Positions 2,886-37,217 are shown, numbered from the stretch's first letter. The stretch: DNA of 37,217 nucleotides from a virus (IMGVR_UViG_3300048833_000713:1-37217); one strand, 5' to 3'. The notes: generated by a model from the letters alone, not told the origin. Translations and numbers: made by a program.

Positions 2886-3084
2886 CGCTGCCTTGCTCCA
2901 TGATCTCGCGAGCGTGGAAGGTGTCGACCTTACTGCCGGGCATCTCCTCGCCGGTATCGAGGTCAACGACGGGTGATCCTTCCAAGCACTCGGCATGGCA
3001 AGCGCCCATCTCTATATCCGAGGCGCAGAGATCGTCAGGCTGCAAAGGCTTGTCGCAGATCGGGCAACGCAGGATGTCAGTCAT
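2878..3084 (-). CDS. Small Cys-rich (zinc-binding-like) phage protein
   Basis: A 68-residue protein starting MTDILRCPICDKPLQPDDLC and continuing with HAEC. The spacing CPIC...C...HxxC suggests one zinc-binding knuckle. Its start overlaps the reverse transcriptase stop as ATGA (3081-3084), so it is co-translated with the DGR genes. No role in the DGR is known for such a protein; it may be an ordinary operon passenger. Confidence 0.72.
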   Translation of the reverse strand: MTDILRCPICDKPLQPDDLCASDIEMGACHAECLEGSPVVDLDTGEEMPGSKVDTFHAREIMEQGSDG

Positions 3085-4082
3085 CGTTTTGATCCTTCCG
3101 TGAGAATTCCGCCCATGCTGCGGACGAGGTTTCGACTGTCGGCCCACCCGGCGTGGCCAAGCCATGAGGCAAGAAAGCGCTGCAGGTGGTCGTGATCTCC
3201 GGCAGCGCGGTAGGCGCGGATCTTCCGGCGCGCCCGCACCACGCTGTCACGGCGCAGAAGCTTGTGAGTTGGCCAGATGCGATAGCCAACAAAATTCACG
3301 CCTCGACCGACCGGCTGGATGCTCCACTTGGAGAATCGCAAGCCAAGACTGTCACGCGAAAGGTCCTCAATGGACTGGCGGACCTTGCGCAGGTGCTCGA
3401 CCGAATTGCCGAGGACAACGATGTCATCCATGTAGCGATACCAAAACCGCTCACCGATCGTTTGCTGCAAATGCCTGTCGACGACGCCGCCGTAGATGTT
3501 GGCAAATATCTGCGACGTCAGGCTGCCGATCGGCAGGCCGATCCCGCTGCGTGGCAGCATGGACTCCAGAAGCAAGGATGTTGCGCGACACGAGATCTTT
3601 GCGTCTATCAGCCGCCACAGCGCACCTCGCTCGATCGAGTAGAAGTAGCGCGAGAAGTCTGTCTTCAGGGCATAAAGGGCTTGTCCGTCGAGAGAGAGTC
3701 TCCGCAGATCAGATTGCAGCGCTGTAGCTGCGGCGTGGGTTCCTTTGCCGGTTCGGCAGGCAAAAGTCCGCGGCAAAAGCGTTGCTTCGAAGATCGGGCC
3801 AATGACTGCGCAGACGGCGTGCTGAGCCACGCGATCCTCAAACGGAAGCGCTGAGATCAGCCTCTCCTTGGGGTCGTAGATCCTGAATTCTTGCGCGGCG
3901 CCTGGTCGATAGGTTCCGTCGCGCATGGTGCTCGCGAGATCCTCCAGATTGAGGATAGAGAACTCTTTGAACTCCAGATATCCTGCCGTCAGCCGTTTAC
4001 CGCGCGACGTCAGGCGAAATGCCTGCCGCATATTGGCGTCTGACGTGATGTCGCCGATCAAGTTGCGAAATTTCTTTGCCAT
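3081..4082 (-). CDS. Diversity-generating retroelement reverse transcriptase
   Basis: Makes the mutagenised cDNA of the template repeat, with copying errors at adenines, that then replaces a variable repeat. The 333-residue length is usual for DGR enzymes. Visible RT motifs are KTDFSRYFYSI (residues 140-150, first catalytic Asp at 142), GLPIGSLTSQIFANIYG (182-198), the YMDD box at 217-220 followed by IVVLG, and GVNFVGYRI (261-269). The SQ after GSLT, where group II intron and retroviral enzymes have a different QG-type motif, is characteristic of DGR/retron-like enzymes. The C-terminal SWLGHAGWADS is a thumb-like end. Start 4082 is fixed by GGAGGAAA 4-12 nt upstream. The same frame is open back through the template repeat to 4430, so an N-terminally extended product is formally possible. 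The DGR assignment rests on the adjacent TR and VR pair. Confidence 0.97.
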   Translation of the reverse strand: MAKKFRNLIGDITSDANMRQAFRLTSRGKRLTAGYLEFKEFSILNLEDLASTMRDGTYRPGAAQEFRIYDPKERLISALPFEDRVAQHAVCAVIGPIFEATLLPRTFACRTGKGTHAAATALQSDLRRLSLDGQALYALKTDFSRYFYSIERGALWRLIDAKISCRATSLLLESMLPRSGIGLPIGSLTSQIFANIYGGVVDRHLQQTIGERFWYRYMDDIVVLGNSVEHLRKVRQSIEDLSRDSLGLRFSKWSIQPVGRGVNFVGYRIWPTHKLLRRDSVVRARRKIRAYRAAGDHDHLQRFLASWLGHAGWADSRNLVRSMGGILTEGSKR

Positions 4083-4258
4083 GGGCTTTCCTCCGGATTG
4101 CCGGTCGCGGGCTTCGACAGCATCGTCGCCGCTACTCCCCGCTGTACCGGACCTTGCAGTGTGTTCGCCGAAGCCGGACGGTCGGGCCGACCACCCTGGC
4201 GCTCGTGCGCCGGTGGAATGTGGCCGCCGCTTCCATGGAAGACGGCGCGCCGAAACTG
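4083..4258 (-). ncRNA. DGR spacer RNA between TR and RT
   Basis: 176 nt with no convincing separate gene lie between the end of the TR homology and the RT start. In the Bordetella phage DGR the equivalent downstream spacer is part of the TR RNA and is needed for cDNA priming, so this stretch is the expected 3' part of the template RNA. It includes the self-complementary CTTCCATGGAAG (4231-4242) and GGCGCGCC (4244-4251). Its folding was not computed. The RT frame is open across it. Confidence 0.6.
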
Positions 4259-4381
4259 GGTTGTCGCAGGCGCCACGGGCAGAGATGTTCTCGTTCGAGT
4301 TCTCAGGCCAGTAGTCCAAGTTCGCGTACCGGGAGCCGGCATTGCTGCCGTTCATCCAGGAGCCGCCAAAGATGGAGGGAC
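4259..4381 (-). repeat. DGR template repeat (TR)
   Basis: 123 nt, located 9 nt after the Avd stop and upstream of the RT, matching both VRs end to end. Read on the minus strand it would encode FGGSWMNGSNAGSRYANLDY and so on, with six Asn codons (AAC/AAT), the hallmark of DGR templates since A-to-N changes in AAY codons can yield many residues. It contains 24 adenines on the coding strand; 17 of these differ in VR1 and 11 in VR2, and no other base differs. An adenine-free block of 20 nt (4265-4284) near its 3' end is identical in all three copies and corresponds to the expected mutagenic-homing start region. Unlike both VRs, it is not followed by the GTTTGCGC hairpin. Confidence 0.97.
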
Positions 4382-4390
4382 CAAGCGTCA

Positions 4391-4765
4391 TTACCCCAAC
4401 CGTCCGTTGCTCTTTGTCGACTTGATCCATTGCCCGAGCATCGCACCGGTCTCTGCTAGGTGGCGCAGTGCCACTGCGTGCTGATGCGGCGTGATGAGCC
4501 GGTTCTTTGGGTCGGCCGCAAAGCGCAACCAGAAACGCAGCGTCGCCATATGTGCGTCGGCGGCAAAGAGCCTCGACGCCTGTTTGGATTTCGCTGCCTG
4601 ATACAAGAGGCCGACCTGATCGAATACCAAGCCGACAAGCCGCTCCCGCAAAGCGCCATGGCGCTTTGGGAAAGCCTGCAGGATCGGGTAAAGATAGGTC
4701 ACGACAGCCTCGTATTTTTCAACGATCGCCAGATCCTGCGCATTTACAAACTCATCGCGGATCAT
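4391..4765 (-). CDS. avd: DGR accessory variability determinant (Avd-like)
   Basis: Avd proteins are small basic four-helix-bundle pentamers that bind the DGR RT and template RNA and are needed for homing. This 124-residue protein is all helical in appearance (DLAIVEKYEAVVTYLYPILQ, RERLVGLVFDQVGLLYQAAK, HMATLRFWLRFAADP, HQHAVALRHLAETGAMLGQW), with Lys/Arg-rich ends. Length, order (target, avd, TR, RT) and the WLRF...LITPHQH region fit the family. The identification comes from context and helical pattern rather than a strong motif. Its stop TAA overlaps an ATG that opens the frame running through the TR into the RT. Confidence 0.88.
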   Translation of the reverse strand: MIRDEFVNAQDLAIVEKYEAVVTYLYPILQAFPKRHGALRERLVGLVFDQVGLLYQAAKSKQASRLFAADAHMATLRFWLRFAADPKNRLITPHQHAVALRHLAETGAMLGQWIKSTKSNGRLG

Positions 4766-4791
4766 GGCGTCTCGATTGCCTCATGAAGAAG

Positions 4792-4811
4792 GTTTGCGCT
4801 TCCGCGCAAAC
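4792..4811 (-). promoter_or_regulatory. DGR target hairpin downstream of VR1
   Basis: Perfect inverted repeat GTTTGCGC / GCGCAAAC with a 4-nt TTCC loop, placed 13 nt beyond the 3' end of VR1 and overlapping the target stop codon. The same element sits at the same distance after VR2. In the Bordetella phage DGR a hairpin or cruciform just after the VR promotes target recognition for homing; here the conserved position and sequence at both targets and the absence at the TR support that role. There is no U-run, so it is not a simple terminator. Confidence 0.88.
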
Positions 4812-5692
4812 TATGCAGGTGTCAGGTGGCCGCAGGCGCCACGGGCAGAGATGCTCACGTACGAGCCCCCAGGCCAGAAGCCCAAGAACGCGTACCGGGA
4901 GCCGGCATCGCCGCCGTCCAGCCAGGAGCCGCCAAAGACGGAGGGACGCGGATCATCCGGATCGCCGTCCGTACCCCAGATCCACAGATTGCCTGTGGCC
5001 TGCATCAGGCCCGCGCGGCTGGTACGCTCTGCATCGAGGCCGGTAGTTACGGGATCGCGGCGCGTGGCCGTCTTCTCAGTCACGCCGTAGGCTGCAGCCC
5101 TGAACTCATCATAGGTCATCATACGCTTGCCATGCGCAGACAAGATTGAATCGGCCGTCTTGAAATCCAGAAGATCGAGCGAAGCGCCGTCAGCGATCTC
5201 CGCACCATGTCGGCTTGTGCCTTGCGCCTTATGGTCCTTTCCGAGCAGATAGATATCGACCCAAAGACGAACGTCACCGTCTTCCACCAAGGTCATTCCG
5301 CGCGGATCTGCGCAGGAGGGCCGGAATTCGAGATCCCAGAAGGAGAAGGGATTGACCGCCGGCACTTTGCTGCCACCGTTGCGACCCTCCGCATTGCCGC
5401 CTGGTGCATAGTGGAAGCCGGCAAAACCGTCCCCGAGCAGAGGATTGGACTCGGCACGCTGGACTACAGGCTTCCCATCGGCGCCGAGGCTTACGGAATA
5501 GTCGCAGCCGGCTTCGAGATCTCCGGTGTGAAGTTCCGTGTCCTCGGTGAAGATCGCGACGTGACTTTCCGTATAGACGCCTGCGCCGGCGCGAACAGCC
5601 AGCTTACCGTCGAGAAGCATCAGGATTGGCGCCGGCGGTGTCATGCGATCAATGCGAATTGCAGCATGCATTGCTTTTGCAGTCTCTGTCAT
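4811..5692 (-). CDS. DGR variable protein 1 (C-type lectin/FGE-like fold)
   Basis: A 293-residue target whose last 42 residues (249-290) are encoded by VR1. Residues 20-90 form a small beta-rich domain. FHYAPGGN at 93-100, FWDLEFRPSCADPRGMTLV (118-136), VDIYLLG and HGKRMMTYDEFRAAAYG begin the formylglycine-enzyme-like C-type lectin domain, which ends GGSWLDGGDAGSRYAFLGFW...ISARGAC. The W-x-W-G motif of this fold is seen as LWIWG (236-240). The protein probably binds a ligand that varies between clones; the ligand is unknown. It lacks the long N-terminal part of its paralogue at 35937. The start at 5692 has AAGGA 9-13 nt upstream. It ends 45 nt before avd and belongs to the early operon. Confidence 0.95.
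   Translation of the reverse strand: MTETAKAMHAAIRIDRMTPPAPILMLLDGKLAVRAGAGVYTESHVAIFTEDTELHTGDLEAGCDYSVSLGADGKPVVQRAESNPLLGDGFAGFHYAPGGNAEGRNGGSKVPAVNPFSFWDLEFRPSCADPRGMTLVEDGDVRLWVDIYLLGKDHKAQGTSRHGAEIADGASLDLLDFKTADSILSAHGKRMMTYDEFRAAAYGVTEKTATRRDPVTTGLDAERTSRAGLMQATGNLWIWGTDGDPDDPRPSVFGGSWLDGGDAGSRYAFLGFWPGGSYVSISARGACGHLTPA
4825..4947 (-). repeat. DGR variable repeat 1 (VR1)
   Basis: Aligned base by base with the TR at an offset of 566. It differs at 17 of 123 positions, and every difference is at a TR adenine on the coding strand (T on the plus strand). Changed codons include Met to Leu, several Asn to Asp/Phe/Gly/Tyr/Ser, Tyr to Phe and Glu to Gly/Val. Homology to the TR stops abruptly at both ends, while homology to VR2 continues into the rest of the paralogous gene. 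Confidence 0.97.
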
Positions 5693-5711
5693 GGTCGTAG
5701 TCCTTGATGTT

Positions 5712-5720
5712 GGGGGGGGG
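5712..5720. repeat. G9 homopolymer between the two DGR targets
   Basis: Nine consecutive G on the plus strand (C9 in the transcript) lie in the short gap between target 2 and target 1, about 20 nt upstream of the target 1 start. Tracts of this length are prone to slippage. It is intergenic, so any effect would be on spacing or translation initiation rather than on reading frame. Confidence 0.7.
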
Positions 5721-5725
5721 TGTGA

Positions 5726-5747
5726 GGTTTGCGCTTCCGCGCAAACC
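5726..5747 (-). promoter_or_regulatory. DGR target hairpin downstream of VR2
   Basis: Inverted repeat with the same arms and TTCC loop as the VR1 hairpin, extended to 9 bp by an outer G-C pair. It is at the same offset from the VR end as at target 1. The gene's stop codon lies between VR2 and the hairpin. See the VR1 hairpin for the expected role. Confidence 0.88.
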
Positions 5748-5754
5748 GATCAGG

Positions 5755-6651
5755 TTACAGGTGGTCGCAGGCGCCACGGGCAGAGACGTGCCCGTTCGAG
5801 TGCCCAGGCCAGCAGACCAAGTGCGCGTACCGGGAGCCGGCACTGCTGCCGTTCAGCCAGGAGCCGCCAAAGATGGAGGGACGCGGATCATCCGGGTGTC
5901 CATCCGTACCCCACTGCCACATAGTGCCGGTGACATCGAAGAGACCCACTTGGCTAATGAAGCGTTGCGCATCGTCAGTCATCTCGCCGCAGCGCTTGGG
6001 TTCGTCCGAGCGCGAGCAGCGTTCCTTGATGCCGTAGGCGGCGGCGAAGAACTCTTCCGCCTTCAGCAGGCGCTTGCCGTGGCTGGCGTAAATGGCCGAC
6101 GCCGTGTGAAAATCGAGGTTTAGGGCTTTGCCTTCTTCATCGGCGGCCTGCGGCAGATCCCGGCCGTCAGCGATGGTTGCACTAAAGCTGGAGGTACCGC
6201 GTTCGCGGTGTTCGGTTCCGAGCAGATAGATGTCGACCCAGATGCGACGTCCGGACGCCGTCACCAGTGTCATTCCACGCGGATCAGGGCATGCGGGGCG
6301 GAAGTCGAGATCCCATATGGAATTAGAGTTGATGGCTGGCGTTGGGTCGCCGCCTTCGGTGCCCTTGGCGTTACCGCCGGGCGCGTAGTGAAAGCCCGCG
6401 ACGGCGCCCGCCGAGATTGGGTTTCCTTCAGCTTCTGCAATGATCCATTCCGAGTGGTCTTTATCGTCGACAAGTAGGCAGTAGTCCCGACCGGCCGTCA
6501 TGAGCTCAGTGGAAAACTCACCGGCGCGCGGAGTGACAGACCTTCCGTCCTTTTCGAAAAGAACGCCCTGGCTGATGGCAATACAGCCCTGATCAGTCAC
6601 CCCAAGGACGGGTGTAGACTGATCTTCTTTGATAATTCGAATGCTGTTCAT
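5755..6651 (-). CDS. DGR variable protein 2 (C-type lectin/FGE-like fold)
   Basis: A 298-residue paralogue of the target encoded directly downstream. It shares AGFHYAPGGN, SIWDLDFRPACPDPRGMTLV, VDIYLLG, HGKRLLKAEEFFAAAYGIKE and MWQWG, and ends in the VR2-encoded segment (residues 257-298) with GGSWLNGSSAGSRYAHLVCW...VSARGACDHL. The N-terminal domain is diverged (MNSIRIIKEDQSTPVLGVTD), so this is an old duplication or a separate acquisition rather than a recent copy. The start at 6651 overlaps the upstream stop as ATGA; the longer frame to 6708 only reads through the upstream gene. It is the first DGR gene in the operon. Confidence 0.95.
   Translation of the reverse strand: MNSIRIIKEDQSTPVLGVTDQGCIAISQGVLFEKDGRSVTPRAGEFSTELMTAGRDYCLLVDDKDHSEWIIAEAEGNPISAGAVAGFHYAPGGNAKGTEGGDPTPAINSNSIWDLDFRPACPDPRGMTLVTASGRRIWVDIYLLGTEHRERGTSSFSATIADGRDLPQAADEEGKALNLDFHTASAIYASHGKRLLKAEEFFAAAYGIKERCSRSDEPKRCGEMTDDAQRFISQVGLFDVTGTMWQWGTDGHPDDPRPSIFGGSWLNGSSAGSRYAHLVCWPGHSNGHVSARGACDHL
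5760..5882 (-). repeat. DGR variable repeat 2 (VR2)
   Basis: Aligned with the TR at an offset of 1501. It differs at 11 of 123 positions, all at TR adenines on the coding strand, to C, G or T. It differs from VR1 at most of the changed sites, so the two VRs were diversified independently. Residues altered include Asn to Ser/His, Asp to Val, Tyr to Cys and Glu to Gly. Confidence 0.97.
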
Positions 6652-7235
6652 GCTCGGCTCCTTTGGTTGGAAGGGTTGTTCTTCTGCCAGGCCTGAAAAT
6701 CGGCCCATAGGTTTTTCCAGCGCTTTGCGGCCTCCGGGCTGGCATCGAGTTCGCTGCGGCTCTTCACGTTGAGCATTGTGCGAACGCGGCTTCGGATTCT
6801 CTCAAGGTCGGAAATATCTGCGCCGTGCATATCTCTGAGGAAGTGCTGGAACTGACTGCTTCTGCAGCAGTCGTCGCACCACTGAGATACCGGCTTGCTT
6901 TTCGTCTTGCCCGGAACAGGGTCGCCCTTCAGACTCCGGATCTCTTCATCCTGTCGCTTGGCCAGATCCTTCACGTACCGAAGCGCCGAGAGCGCTGCCT
7001 TCAGCATCTGAGGCGCCCGGATGACGAACTCTCTGTCCGAGTAGCTAATGTCTTCAGTCAGCAGCAGAATCGGACGTGCGTCTAATCCTGCGTCGCCGAT
7101 AACCATTATCTCCGTCCGACCATCCTCGAAGTTTCGAAAACTCTGCCAGCCTGCGGACATCAGAGGCTCAAGCTCCGCAGCCTTCTGCAGAAGCATCTTT
7201 TCTTCATTGGTAGGTTTGGGAGTGGAGAGCGTCAT
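6648..7235 (-). CDS. Hypothetical phage protein (195 aa)
   Basis: Starts MTLSTPKPTNEEKMLLQKAAELEP and contains a beta-rich middle (FEDGRTEIMVIGDAG, DREFVIRAPQMLKAAL) and a Cys pair region (WCDDCCRSSQFQHFLRD). The C-terminal third is helical and basic with Trp residues (RWKNLWADFQAWQKNN). I do not recognise the family. It is coupled by ATGA overlaps to the clamp gene before it (7232-7235) and the DGR target after it. Confidence 0.75.
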   Translation of the reverse strand: MTLSTPKPTNEEKMLLQKAAELEPLMSAGWQSFRNFEDGRTEIMVIGDAGLDARPILLLTEDISYSDREFVIRAPQMLKAALSALRYVKDLAKRQDEEIRSLKGDPVPGKTKSKPVSQWCDDCCRSSQFQHFLRDMHGADISDLERIRSRVRTMLNVKSRSELDASPEAAKRWKNLWADFQAWQKNNPSNQRSRA

Positions 7236-8413
7236 GCAGCCTCCCGACCTGGTGCATTGCGGTAGCGCATGACCTGAAGAACAAAGATCTCAGTCTCCGA
7301 GCCCACGGGCACGACCAGGACGGGCGTGGACGTGTCTGTGAAATACATCCGCACACGCTCACTGCTAATATTCGCCATGAGCTTCAGGAGCTGCGCGCCG
7401 TTTATGCCAACCTCGAAGTCCACAGGGGCTGAGACCGAACATTCTACCTCCTCGACGGCGATGCCACCGGTCTCGCCGATGAGATCGAGCTTGATGCCTG
7501 TCTGAGTGATGACCACGCGCATAGCGTCGTGCTTCTGGTCGTCGATGACGATACTGACGCGTCGGACGGCTGCGGTGATGTCGGCGGTGACGGCCTCGAT
7601 GTACTGGTCGCGTCCCTTGGGAATGACGCCTTCATAGCCGGGATAGGTTCCATCGATCAACTTTGAGATCATGGTCACGCCATCGCGCCGGGCGAAGAGC
7701 AGAGCATCGGTGGTCGCGATGCTGCAGCCTCTCTGCGCGCCTTCGAACATCTTACGCAGGCCCTCAACCGTCTTCGGGGGCAGGATCACATGTGGATAAC
7801 TGTGGCGCCGCTCAGGCAGGCGGGGCTCCGGGGTGGAGGGGCAGTAGACCCGCGCAAGACTGATGCCGTCGGTGGCGACGAGCGTCAAAATCTGACGGCC
7901 ATCGATCTCGCGAGCATGCACGCAGAGGCCGGCGAGATAGGCACGATCGTCGCGCCTGTTGTAAGCGAAGCTGGACTTGCCGAGGCCTTGCGCCAGTTCG
8001 TTGCCGTCCACATCATACCAGTCGGCGCCGCTGCCATCGCCGATAGAGGGAAAGTCCTCGCCCGGCAGGAAGGGGATCGATAGACTTGCCTTGCCGGAGC
8101 GGATCGAGACCTGATCCTTAAAGCGACCAGATCCGAAAACAATCTCGCCACTGTCCGGCAGGCTGGAAGACAAGGCCTTCAAGCGGTCACCAGGCAGACA
8201 GAAGGCCGCTCGCTCCGCGCTCTCGAAGATTTCGCATTCGGCATCGACCTGCAGATCGAGGTTGGAGGCGCGCAGTGTCAGCACGTCGCCCTCAATCGAG
8301 AAGAGGACGTGACCGAGAATCGGGATCGTGCTGTTAAAGTCGACCGCGCCCATGATCATGGCGAGCGCCTTGCGGAAATCGGCGTGGTGCGCGCGAAACC
8401 AGATGTCAGCCAT
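7232..8413 (-). CDS. dnaN: Phage DNA polymerase sliding clamp (beta subunit-like)
   Basis: Ring clamp that tethers DNA polymerase III. At 393 residues it is close to bacterial DnaN (about 366-375). Family features are N-terminal IPILGHVLFSIEGDVLTLRASNLDLQ, the central FLPGEDFPSIG, LVATDGISLARV, LIDGTYPGYEGVIPK and the C-terminal VLQVMRYRN, which resembles the PMR end of cellular clamps but has lost the Pro. A phage copy in the lysogenic/early operon suggests takeover or support of host replication. Start 8413 overlaps the upstream gene by 8 bp. Whether it competes with the host clamp cannot be seen. Confidence 0.93.
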   Translation of the reverse strand: MADIWFRAHHADFRKALAMIMGAVDFNSTIPILGHVLFSIEGDVLTLRASNLDLQVDAECEIFESAERAAFCLPGDRLKALSSSLPDSGEIVFGSGRFKDQVSIRSGKASLSIPFLPGEDFPSIGDGSGADWYDVDGNELAQGLGKSSFAYNRRDDRAYLAGLCVHAREIDGRQILTLVATDGISLARVYCPSTPEPRLPERRHSYPHVILPPKTVEGLRKMFEGAQRGCSIATTDALLFARRDGVTMISKLIDGTYPGYEGVIPKGRDQYIEAVTADITAAVRRVSIVIDDQKHDAMRVVITQTGIKLDLIGETGGIAVEEVECSVSAPVDFEVGINGAQLLKLMANISSERVRMYFTDTSTPVLVVPVGSETEIFVLQVMRYRNAPGREAA

Positions 8414-8606
8414 GGACCGGCTCCTGACGGGTGCTGCAAAGGCGCGCGAGATTGAGTTCGGATAGGGGGGGGCGCAGCCCTGCAGCCTCACCGACGAAAT
8501 CGTAGAACCGCTGAAGCAGATCTTCGGTCGTTTCGCCGTCCGCTATGGCGCGGTAAAGCTGCTCCGCCTCTATGCGCTCAGCCTGGTCTAGGCGGATGAT
8601 GCTCAT
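8406..8606 (-). CDS. Small hypothetical phage protein (66 aa)
   Basis: Starts MSIIRLDQAERIEAEQLYRAIADGE; helical, acidic, ending EPVHG. Coupled by ATGA to the preceding gene and by an 8-bp overlap to the clamp gene. The gene includes a C8 run (G8 on the plus strand, 8465-8472) that encodes part of RPPLSE, where slippage would truncate or extend the product. Function unknown. Confidence 0.7.
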   Translation of the reverse strand: MSIIRLDQAERIEAEQLYRAIADGETTEDLLQRFYDFVGEAAGLRPPLSELNLARLCSTRQEPVHG

Positions 8607-35926: not shown

Positions 35927-35936
35927 GGATATGACC

Positions 35937-37217
35937 ATGGACGCAACAGCTAACCTCAATCTTCCGATCCCGAATGCGGATGCCGTTCCGCCAACAAACA
36001 TCAGTGATGAGTTCCCGCGCATAGCGCTGGCACTCACGATGCTTGATGCCATCATCTATACCCTTCAAGGCGTGGTCGCGGGAAAGGCGGAAGAGGATCA
36101 CACGCAGGCGATTTCGACCATCGACGGCCTGACAGAAGAACTGGCATCCAAGATGTCGGCAAGTGCCACCTTCAGTCTTGATGATCTCGAAGATGTCCTG
36201 GGTGCAGCGGGCGCTGCGGTTAACTACGTCCTGGTAAAGAACGTAGATGGCAAGTGGGTGCCATCGACAGCCCTGGCCGCACTCGGTCTTCATGATCACG
36301 CCATCAGTGAAGTCGTAGGCCTCGGCGAAGCGCTTGTGGCAATCGAGGATGCTCTTTCCCAGCTAGCGGCGGACAAAGTCGATGTCATTGCTGCTGCCGC
36401 CACGGAAGCGGCCATTGCTACGGCGATGAGCCTTCGTGCGAAGGGCCTGTTCGTGAAGGCCGACCCGCGCTCCGTCGCCTTCATTAAGACGGGTGCCGGT
36501 ACGGCCTCAATCAAGGCCGGAACCATCGTCGAGGTAAACGGCGCGGTCCGTCAGTTTGTGGTCGATACCGCAATCACCATGCCGGCACTGACGGCGGGCA
36601 CGGATTATGCGATCTGGGTCCATCCGGATGGCGCGATCTCGGCGACGGCGAGCTTCACGTCGGCGCCCGTTGCAAACGCGCGTCGCATTGGCGGCTTCCA
36701 CTATGCTCCGGGCGGCAATGCTGCGGCCCAGGCGGGCGGTGACGCGGTGCCAGCCATCAACGAATTCGCGATGTGGGATCTGAAGTGGCGTCCGTCCTGC
36801 CCGGACCCGCGCGGCATGACGCTGGTGGCTGGTGCTTTCTGGTGCGACATCTACCACCTCGGCGTCGATCACCTGATCAACGGTACGTCGAAGTTCAACG
36901 TAACCATGGCAGACGGCTCTTCGCCGCCGCGCCGCCCGCTGATGTTCGGTGGCAACGGCACCGCGACCTATTCGACGCTCACCTGGTGGGAAGCTGCCGA
37001 GGTCATGGTGAGCCACGGCAAGGAGCTGCTCTCCTATGCCGACTTCGCTGCCGCAGCTTACGGCACGACGGAAAACGCCTCTGCCGGCACCGATCCGGTC
37101 TCGACCATCCTTCGCCAGGCCTACACCTCGAAATGGGGCGTGATGCTGGCGACCGGCAATGTCTGGGTCTGGGGCAATGAGTTTGGCGGTGGCGCTCAGG
37201 GTGCTGCCTGGGCGAAC
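35937..37217 (+). CDS. Tail protein with DGR-target-like C-terminal domain (cut by window end)
   Basis: At least 427 residues, running off the right edge. Residues 1-170 are Ala-rich and helical (MDATANLNLPIPNADAVPPT, SLDDLEDVLGAAGAAVNYVL, AIEDALSQLAADKVDVIAAA), typical of virion-attachment parts of tail fibres. From about 174 it is homologous to both DGR targets: LTAGTDYAIWVHPDG, IGGFHYAPGGN (251-261), MWDLKWRPSCPDPRGMTLV, HGKELLSYADFAAAAYGTTE and ATGNVWVWG. In the DGR targets the VR follows this WxWG motif within about 10 residues, so a VR should begin just past the window. Start 35937 has GAGG 8 nt before it; ATG 35931 is in frame. Probably the receptor-binding tail protein. Confidence 0.9.
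   Translation, partial: MDATANLNLPIPNADAVPPTNISDEFPRIALALTMLDAIIYTLQGVVAGKAEEDHTQAISTIDGLTEELASKMSASATFSLDDLEDVLGAAGAAVNYVLVKNVDGKWVPSTALAALGLHDHAISEVVGLGEALVAIEDALSQLAADKVDVIAAAATEAAIATAMSLRAKGLFVKADPRSVAFIKTGAGTASIKAGTIVEVNGAVRQFVVDTAITMPALTAGTDYAIWVHPDGAISATASFTSAPVANARRIGGFHYAPGGNAAAQAGGDAVPAINEFAMWDLKWRPSCPDPRGMTLVAGAFWCDIYHLGVDHLINGTSKFNVTMADGSSPPRRPLMFGGNGTATYSTLTWWEAAEVMVSHGKELLSYADFAAAAYGTTENASAGTDPVSTILRQAYTSKWGVMLATGNVWVWGNEFGGGAQGAAWAN

Follow-up and report, generated by a model that had tools for sequence, protein, structure and literature searches.

Our findings identify, in the 37,217-nt stretch of viral DNA IMGVR_UViG_3300048833_000713:1-37217 (hereafter the window, with positions counted from its first letter), a genuine diversity-generating retroelement (DGR) of the BPP-1 kind, in which one template repeat (TR) serves two target genes, T1 and T2, both related to the BPP-1 target Mtd. 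We hold with high confidence that this is a working element, that its clade has left the tail module, and that its targets, which lack the N-terminal beta-prism of Mtd, are old paralogues on that one TR. The anatomy of the element, its adenine specificity, the shared TR, the loss of the prism, the location and the clade are established at the level of sequence.

Adenine-only repeats and cassette anatomy

The three repeats were re-extracted as the reverse complements of their intervals (Table 1) and compared base by base without gaps. The variable repeat (VR) of T1, VR1, differs from the TR at 17 of 123 positions and that of T2, VR2, at 11; all 28 changes fall at the 24 TR adenines, and the 99 non-adenine positions are identical across the TR, VR1 and VR2. 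The hypergeometric probability of placements so confined is about 1e-15 for VR1 and about 2e-9 for VR2, and 20 of the 24 TR adenines are altered in at least one VR. An earlier account of this DNA (the sequence-only reading) had described just this pattern, and realignment bears it out, with no change at any non-adenine position of the TR. No fourth copy of the repeat was found in the window. One substitution, A120 to C, is common to VR1 and VR2 and encodes His297 (H297), which is invariant across a 55-row target alignment; these 2 of the 28 changes are therefore probably a fixed difference between the initiation of mutagenic homing elements at the VR end (IMH) and the TR end (IMH*) rather than a product of mutagenesis, and the other 26 are plausibly mutagenic in origin. 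The GC-rich 3' end and the shared A-to-C near it are candidate traces of IMH/IMH*.

Outside the VR, T1 and T2 share 54% nucleotide identity; within it they agree at 106 of 123 positions, and each difference lies at a TR adenine. Because every non-adenine is identical in paralogues that have otherwise diverged this far, repeated overwriting of both genes from one TR would be the simplest account. The age of the changes is unreadable from a single sequence, which allows for an element that is a decaying relic, or for repeats that are ordinary duplications, yet the adenine-only pattern, the identity of the VR non-adenines between such distant paralogues, and a cassette in which every open reading frame (ORF) is open make such a history extremely improbable.

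The DGR is complete, as the sequence-only reading had maintained: reverse transcriptase (RT), accessory variability determinant (bAvd), TR/VR pairs, hairpins and Mtd-fold targets are all present. The gene order is the one it had given (target 2, target 1, avd, TR, RT), and all lie on the minus strand. The RT, which starts at an ATG with GGAGG upstream, matches a DGR RT profile (Table 1) and clusters with other DGR RTs in our tree; its top phage matches are Bordetella DGR RTs, and it is 54.5% identical to BPP-1 Brt over 97%. With the BPP-1 DGR (mtd-avd-TR-brt; NC_005357, PMC3240598) the window thus shares its RT, and also bAvd, the gene order with the TR between avd and RT, the adenine-only changes, an Mtd-fold target, and a GRNA-loop hairpin behind the VR of the sort needed for homing in BPP-1 (PMC3240598). 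It differs in having two targets, each without Mtd residues 1 to about 56, in the early-region placement of the cassette on the strand opposite to the structural genes, and in its contractile-type tail genes, as indicated by baseplate J and Tail_P2_I.

On this anatomy, a homing mechanism as in BPP-1 is strongly supported. TR RNA would be copied by the RT together with Avd, the adenines being misread, and the mutated complementary DNA would replace VR1 in T1 or VR2 in T2, at homing sites marked by the GC-rich VR 3' end and the GRNA-loop hairpin just behind it. The cassette clade would have departed from the tail module with targets that have no beta-prism and retain both the beta-sandwich and the C-type lectin with its hypervariable stretch, and T1 and T2, as old paralogues, would stay tied to one TR via repeated homing.

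Table 1. Positions of the DGR components, the adjoining genes and the tail-module paralogue in the window
Feature	Position	Strand	Evidence and remarks
DGR RT (MAKKFRNL...; IGSLTSQ and YMDD motifs)	3081..4082	-	phrog_1423, E 9e-108; PF00078, E 3.7e-16
TR, 123 nt	4259..4381	-	24 adenines; between avd and RT
bAvd	4391..4765	-	PF22296 bAvd, E 2e-27; phrog_3206 Avd protein of DGR, E 1.4e-28
Hairpin GTTTGCGC-GGAA-GCGCAAAC	4792..4811	-	sequence; just past VR1, target-recognition type, GRNA loop
T1, avd-proximal target, Mtd-like, 293 amino acids	4811..5692	-	phrog_11262 tail protein, E 2.3e-68; mtd_2nd PF21916, E 1.2e-5; no beta-prism
VR1	4825..4947	-	3' end of T1
Hairpin GGTTTGCGC-GGAA-GCGCAAACC	5726..5747	-	sequence; past VR2, GRNA loop
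T2, avd-distal target, Mtd-like, 298 amino acids	5755..6651	-	Mtd in PDB, E 1.8e-42; no beta-prism
VR2	5760..5882	-	3' end of T2
Upstream gene	6648..7235	-	phrog_10379, E 1e-25; ATGA overlaps with T2 and with clamp gene
DNA polymerase III beta-clamp-like processivity factor	7232..8491	-	PF00712/02767/02768; phrog_947, E 1.1e-55; upstream, same gene string
M3, third, full-type Mtd	35931..37217	+	own N-terminal part of about 165 amino acids; directly behind DUF4815 tail gene; exits window before VR

Early-region clade and its prism-less targets

The start of T2 overlaps the stop of the phrog_10379 gene in an ATGA, and a further ATGA continues the chain to the clamp gene. Cassettes of this kind lie in an early/lysogeny region (clamp, repressor, primase, integrase). 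The neighbouring genes and these overlaps support the early-operon location that had been proposed. RT scans yielded 80 viral loci and 25 genome loci, among which the RTs of the window and 58 others, which we call early-type, form one clade in a quick tree (Shimodaira-Hasegawa-like approximate likelihood ratio test, SH-aLRT, 99); the targets of early-type loci likewise form one clade in a VR-free target tree. Named hosts of these loci are alphaproteobacteria, mostly Rhizobiales, and the plasmid collection gave no useful match. Around 24 sampled early-type loci (70 and 71 genes), the neighbours include repressors, ParB-like proteins, DNA methyltransferases, clamp, primase, helicase and integrase, and none of the families listed is a head or tail family; when tail-type loci were scanned in this way, the neighbours were tail, baseplate, portal and terminase families.

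Counted after the removal of near-copies, the 64 early-type loci carry two VR-bearing targets in 30 cases, one in 27 and three in one (L106); in the other 6, several of them truncated, none was detected. Across 90 early-type VRs, 1040 of 2020 adenine sites are altered as against 22 of 8858 other positions, and GRNA loops occur in 59 of 63 scored hairpins. Half of the non-adenine changes (11/22) are T to G, above the expectation from random error. The three consecutive Mtd-type targets of L106 (7198-9232) share one TR and show 10, 11 and 15 adenine changes with none elsewhere. Distant targets with adenine-only changes lie about 4 kb past the RT start in L055 (11611-11733) and about 6.5 kb upstream of it in L104 (3217-3340).

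The C-type-lectin (Mtd) fold previously assigned to the targets agrees with PF21916, PDB and Foldseek matches, by which both the beta-sandwich and the hypervariable C-type lectin of Mtd are present. An AlphaFold2 model of T2, made from an alignment of window and locus sequences only, has a mean predicted local distance difference test score (pLDDT) of 90 and a predicted template modelling score (pTM) of 0.90, and Foldseek places it on Mtd with a template modelling score (TM) of 0.84 (E 2.5e-25). The VR portion of T2 (residues 257-297) aligns with the TR-encoded stretch of Mtd; since the hypervariable stretch is poorly modelled (pLDDT about 60, and below 50 at 268-272), the claim that the changed codons map to the ligand-binding face stands for the fold and the aligned position of the VR, not for the side chains. 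T1 and T2 begin at the position of Mtd residue 57 or so, and the N-terminal beta-prism is absent: 91 residues precede the GFHYAP motif in T1 as against 140 in BPP-1 Mtd. About 75-100 precede it in nearly all early-type targets, a few having uncertain ORF starts; several tail-type Mtds have some 250 to 470, and L058, L060 and the tail-module gene M3 have about 250 or above. In the VR-free tree, several branches of which are weakly supported, T1 and T2 fall in separate old lineages. At other two-target loci the avd-proximal genes come mostly from a single lineage and the distal ones from different lineages, an order that is swapped in the window (4811-6651).

Tail-module paralogue M3 and a possible second DGR

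A third paralogue in the tail module had also been noted. Its existence is confirmed, as the Mtd gene M3 from 35931 to beyond 37217; the window ends before its VR, so that from the window itself M3 is no more than a putative target. The final 795 nt of M3 are 93% identical to the relative L148, with a sharp border at window position 36423, upstream of which the two are unrelated. M3 is thus chimeric from 36423 on, as if the C-terminus of an Mtd had travelled with its own DGR. The V. cholerae kappa-like prophage offers a likeness in its transferred mtd-avd-TR-RT unit (PMC3521204), where the C-terminal part of mtd moves with avd-TR-RT and the border is similar; this likeness holds for M3 rather than for the early DGR, and what remains of the M3 cassette lies outside the record. 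Two phage T7 records (LR745707 and LR745708, about 35940-36670), which are possibly laboratory constructs, carry a gene 17 with an Mtd-like C-terminal part.

L148 runs on into a VR-like end, a hairpin and then its own avd, and two further M3-type loci (L160 and L161) hold full cassettes, with 11 of 25 and 17 of 27 adenines changed and no change elsewhere. An exact-pattern scan of viral contigs for the rest of M3 returned the L148 contig only. As an Mtd paralogue within the same phage record, M3 was considered as a third target of the window TR, single TRs with distant targets being found in L055 and L104; however, of the 99 non-adenine positions of the window TR the VR of L148 matches only 56, and M3-type relatives have their own avd, TR and RT; we rejected this candidate as very unlikely. 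Taken with the cassettes of L148, L160 and L161, the mismatch suggests that M3 is probably targeted by another DGR of the same phage, classical in kind and separate from the first, which would lie beyond the end of the record. Two DGRs do occur on a 35.6-kb contig, G029:C61, which carries an early-type and a tail-module DGR, both complete and on opposite strands (L153/L154, 7509-10417 and 22917-25584). The tail-module DGR comes with a target, avd, TR and RT of its own, shows 10 adenine changes and no others, and lies amid phage tail genes; a near-identical one is held by G028:C99 (L155). For two DGRs in one phage we found no clear precedent in the literature searched, which is not proof of absence.

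Several points weigh against the picture drawn so far. When 397 genomes of one order were scanned for M3-type genes, three matches appeared, one beside a broken RT (L169, an M3-type Mtd gene with avd and an RT missing its middle) and two, in G398 (L170) and G423 (L171), in genomes where a DGR-type RT was not found (orphaned or decaying systems, on our reading). The proposal that every M3-type gene belongs to some DGR is weakened by the two RT-less genomes, and the membership of M3 in a second DGR is accordingly not certain. G029:C61 comes from an uncultured Paracoccus metagenome bin, and its origin from a single phage is not proven. The term early operon reflects which genes are present and how they overlap rather than transcripts, and that the DGR is active now is something we infer from its sequence and not from variation within a population.

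Known systems and the role of the targets

The suggestion that a two-target phage DGR may be new did not survive comparison with published surveys. Multiple VRs are present in 28.6% of surveyed DGRs (PMC6642488), two-target DGRs make up about 13% by the figure cited in PMC10743442, and Faecalibacterium phage Lagaffe_CP (PMC11792537), compared with the window on this point only, has one DGR with two Mtd-homologous targets, which were proposed to double its tropism-switching repertoire. The survey figures and Lagaffe_CP make the two-target arrangement ordinary. The gut phages nd4 and nd12 (tentaclins; PMC10743442) likewise set two C-type-lectin targets on one TR, one target type being without the beta-prism and beta-sandwich of Mtd, but their two targets differ in topology, whereas the window pair are both Mtd-type and keep the beta-sandwich. 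What looks less known is the clade-wide early-region location, the prism-less targets, the old paralogues kept alike at non-adenines by one TR, and the likely double-DGR phage. The sequence-only reading had not noticed the prism loss, the conservation of the early-region location across an RT clade, or the probable membership of the third paralogue in a second DGR. No description of an early-region, prism-less clade was found in the literature searched, and the IMG/VR members of the clade may well be included among the more than 30,000 catalogued DGRs (PMC8144416).

T1 and T2 would bind variable ligands, and two proposals for their role stay close. To the first we give a little less than an even chance: T1 and T2 would be additional virion receptor-binding proteins, fitted to the tail via another adaptor and doubling the tropism-switching repertoire. 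Fold and family argue for it, as the sequence and fold are those of Mtd, PHROGs places the target family under 'tail', and most phage DGR targets carry an annotation as host-attachment proteins (PMC8144416); the T1 and T2 sequences show neither an obvious N-terminal signal nor an obvious hydrophobic stretch. Location, prism loss and the separate tail proteins argue instead for the second, to which we give slightly less weight, namely that T1 and T2 are non-virion, variable and soluble lectin-fold binders made early or by the lysogen, acting within the cell or after lysis (for example on competitor-phage or host components). The beta-prism, by which Mtd attaches to the fibre, is absent clade-wide; the target genes lie in a DNA-metabolism/lysogeny region in the 24 sampled loci, and in the window they are coupled to the clamp gene; a related phage, G013, has a non-Mtd gene behind its DUF4815 tail gene; and in both the window and G029:C61 the tail module holds a further Mtd or DGR target. 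For cellular DGRs, variable binders in the cytosol have been suggested (PMC10053308), although for T1 and T2 both the ligand and the cellular site are conjectural, and the characterised protein of the same fold, Mtd, is a virion tip protein. In its fullest form, which we put forward tentatively and consider rather unlikely, alphaproteobacterial temperate phages would keep a second, tail-independent DGR with prism-less Mtd pairs as early or lysogen hypervariable non-virion binders, in addition to a conventional tail-tip system, which in the window phage would itself be diversified by another DGR.

Phage DGRs are usually read as tropism-switching devices of tail tips. A widespread clade whose targets lie off the tail genes and have lost the attachment domain makes the hypermutation of non-virion phage proteins a testable idea. 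The same clade supplies natural sets of two and three targets, with otherwise far-diverged paralogues drawing on a single TR, and at least one contig has two independent DGRs.

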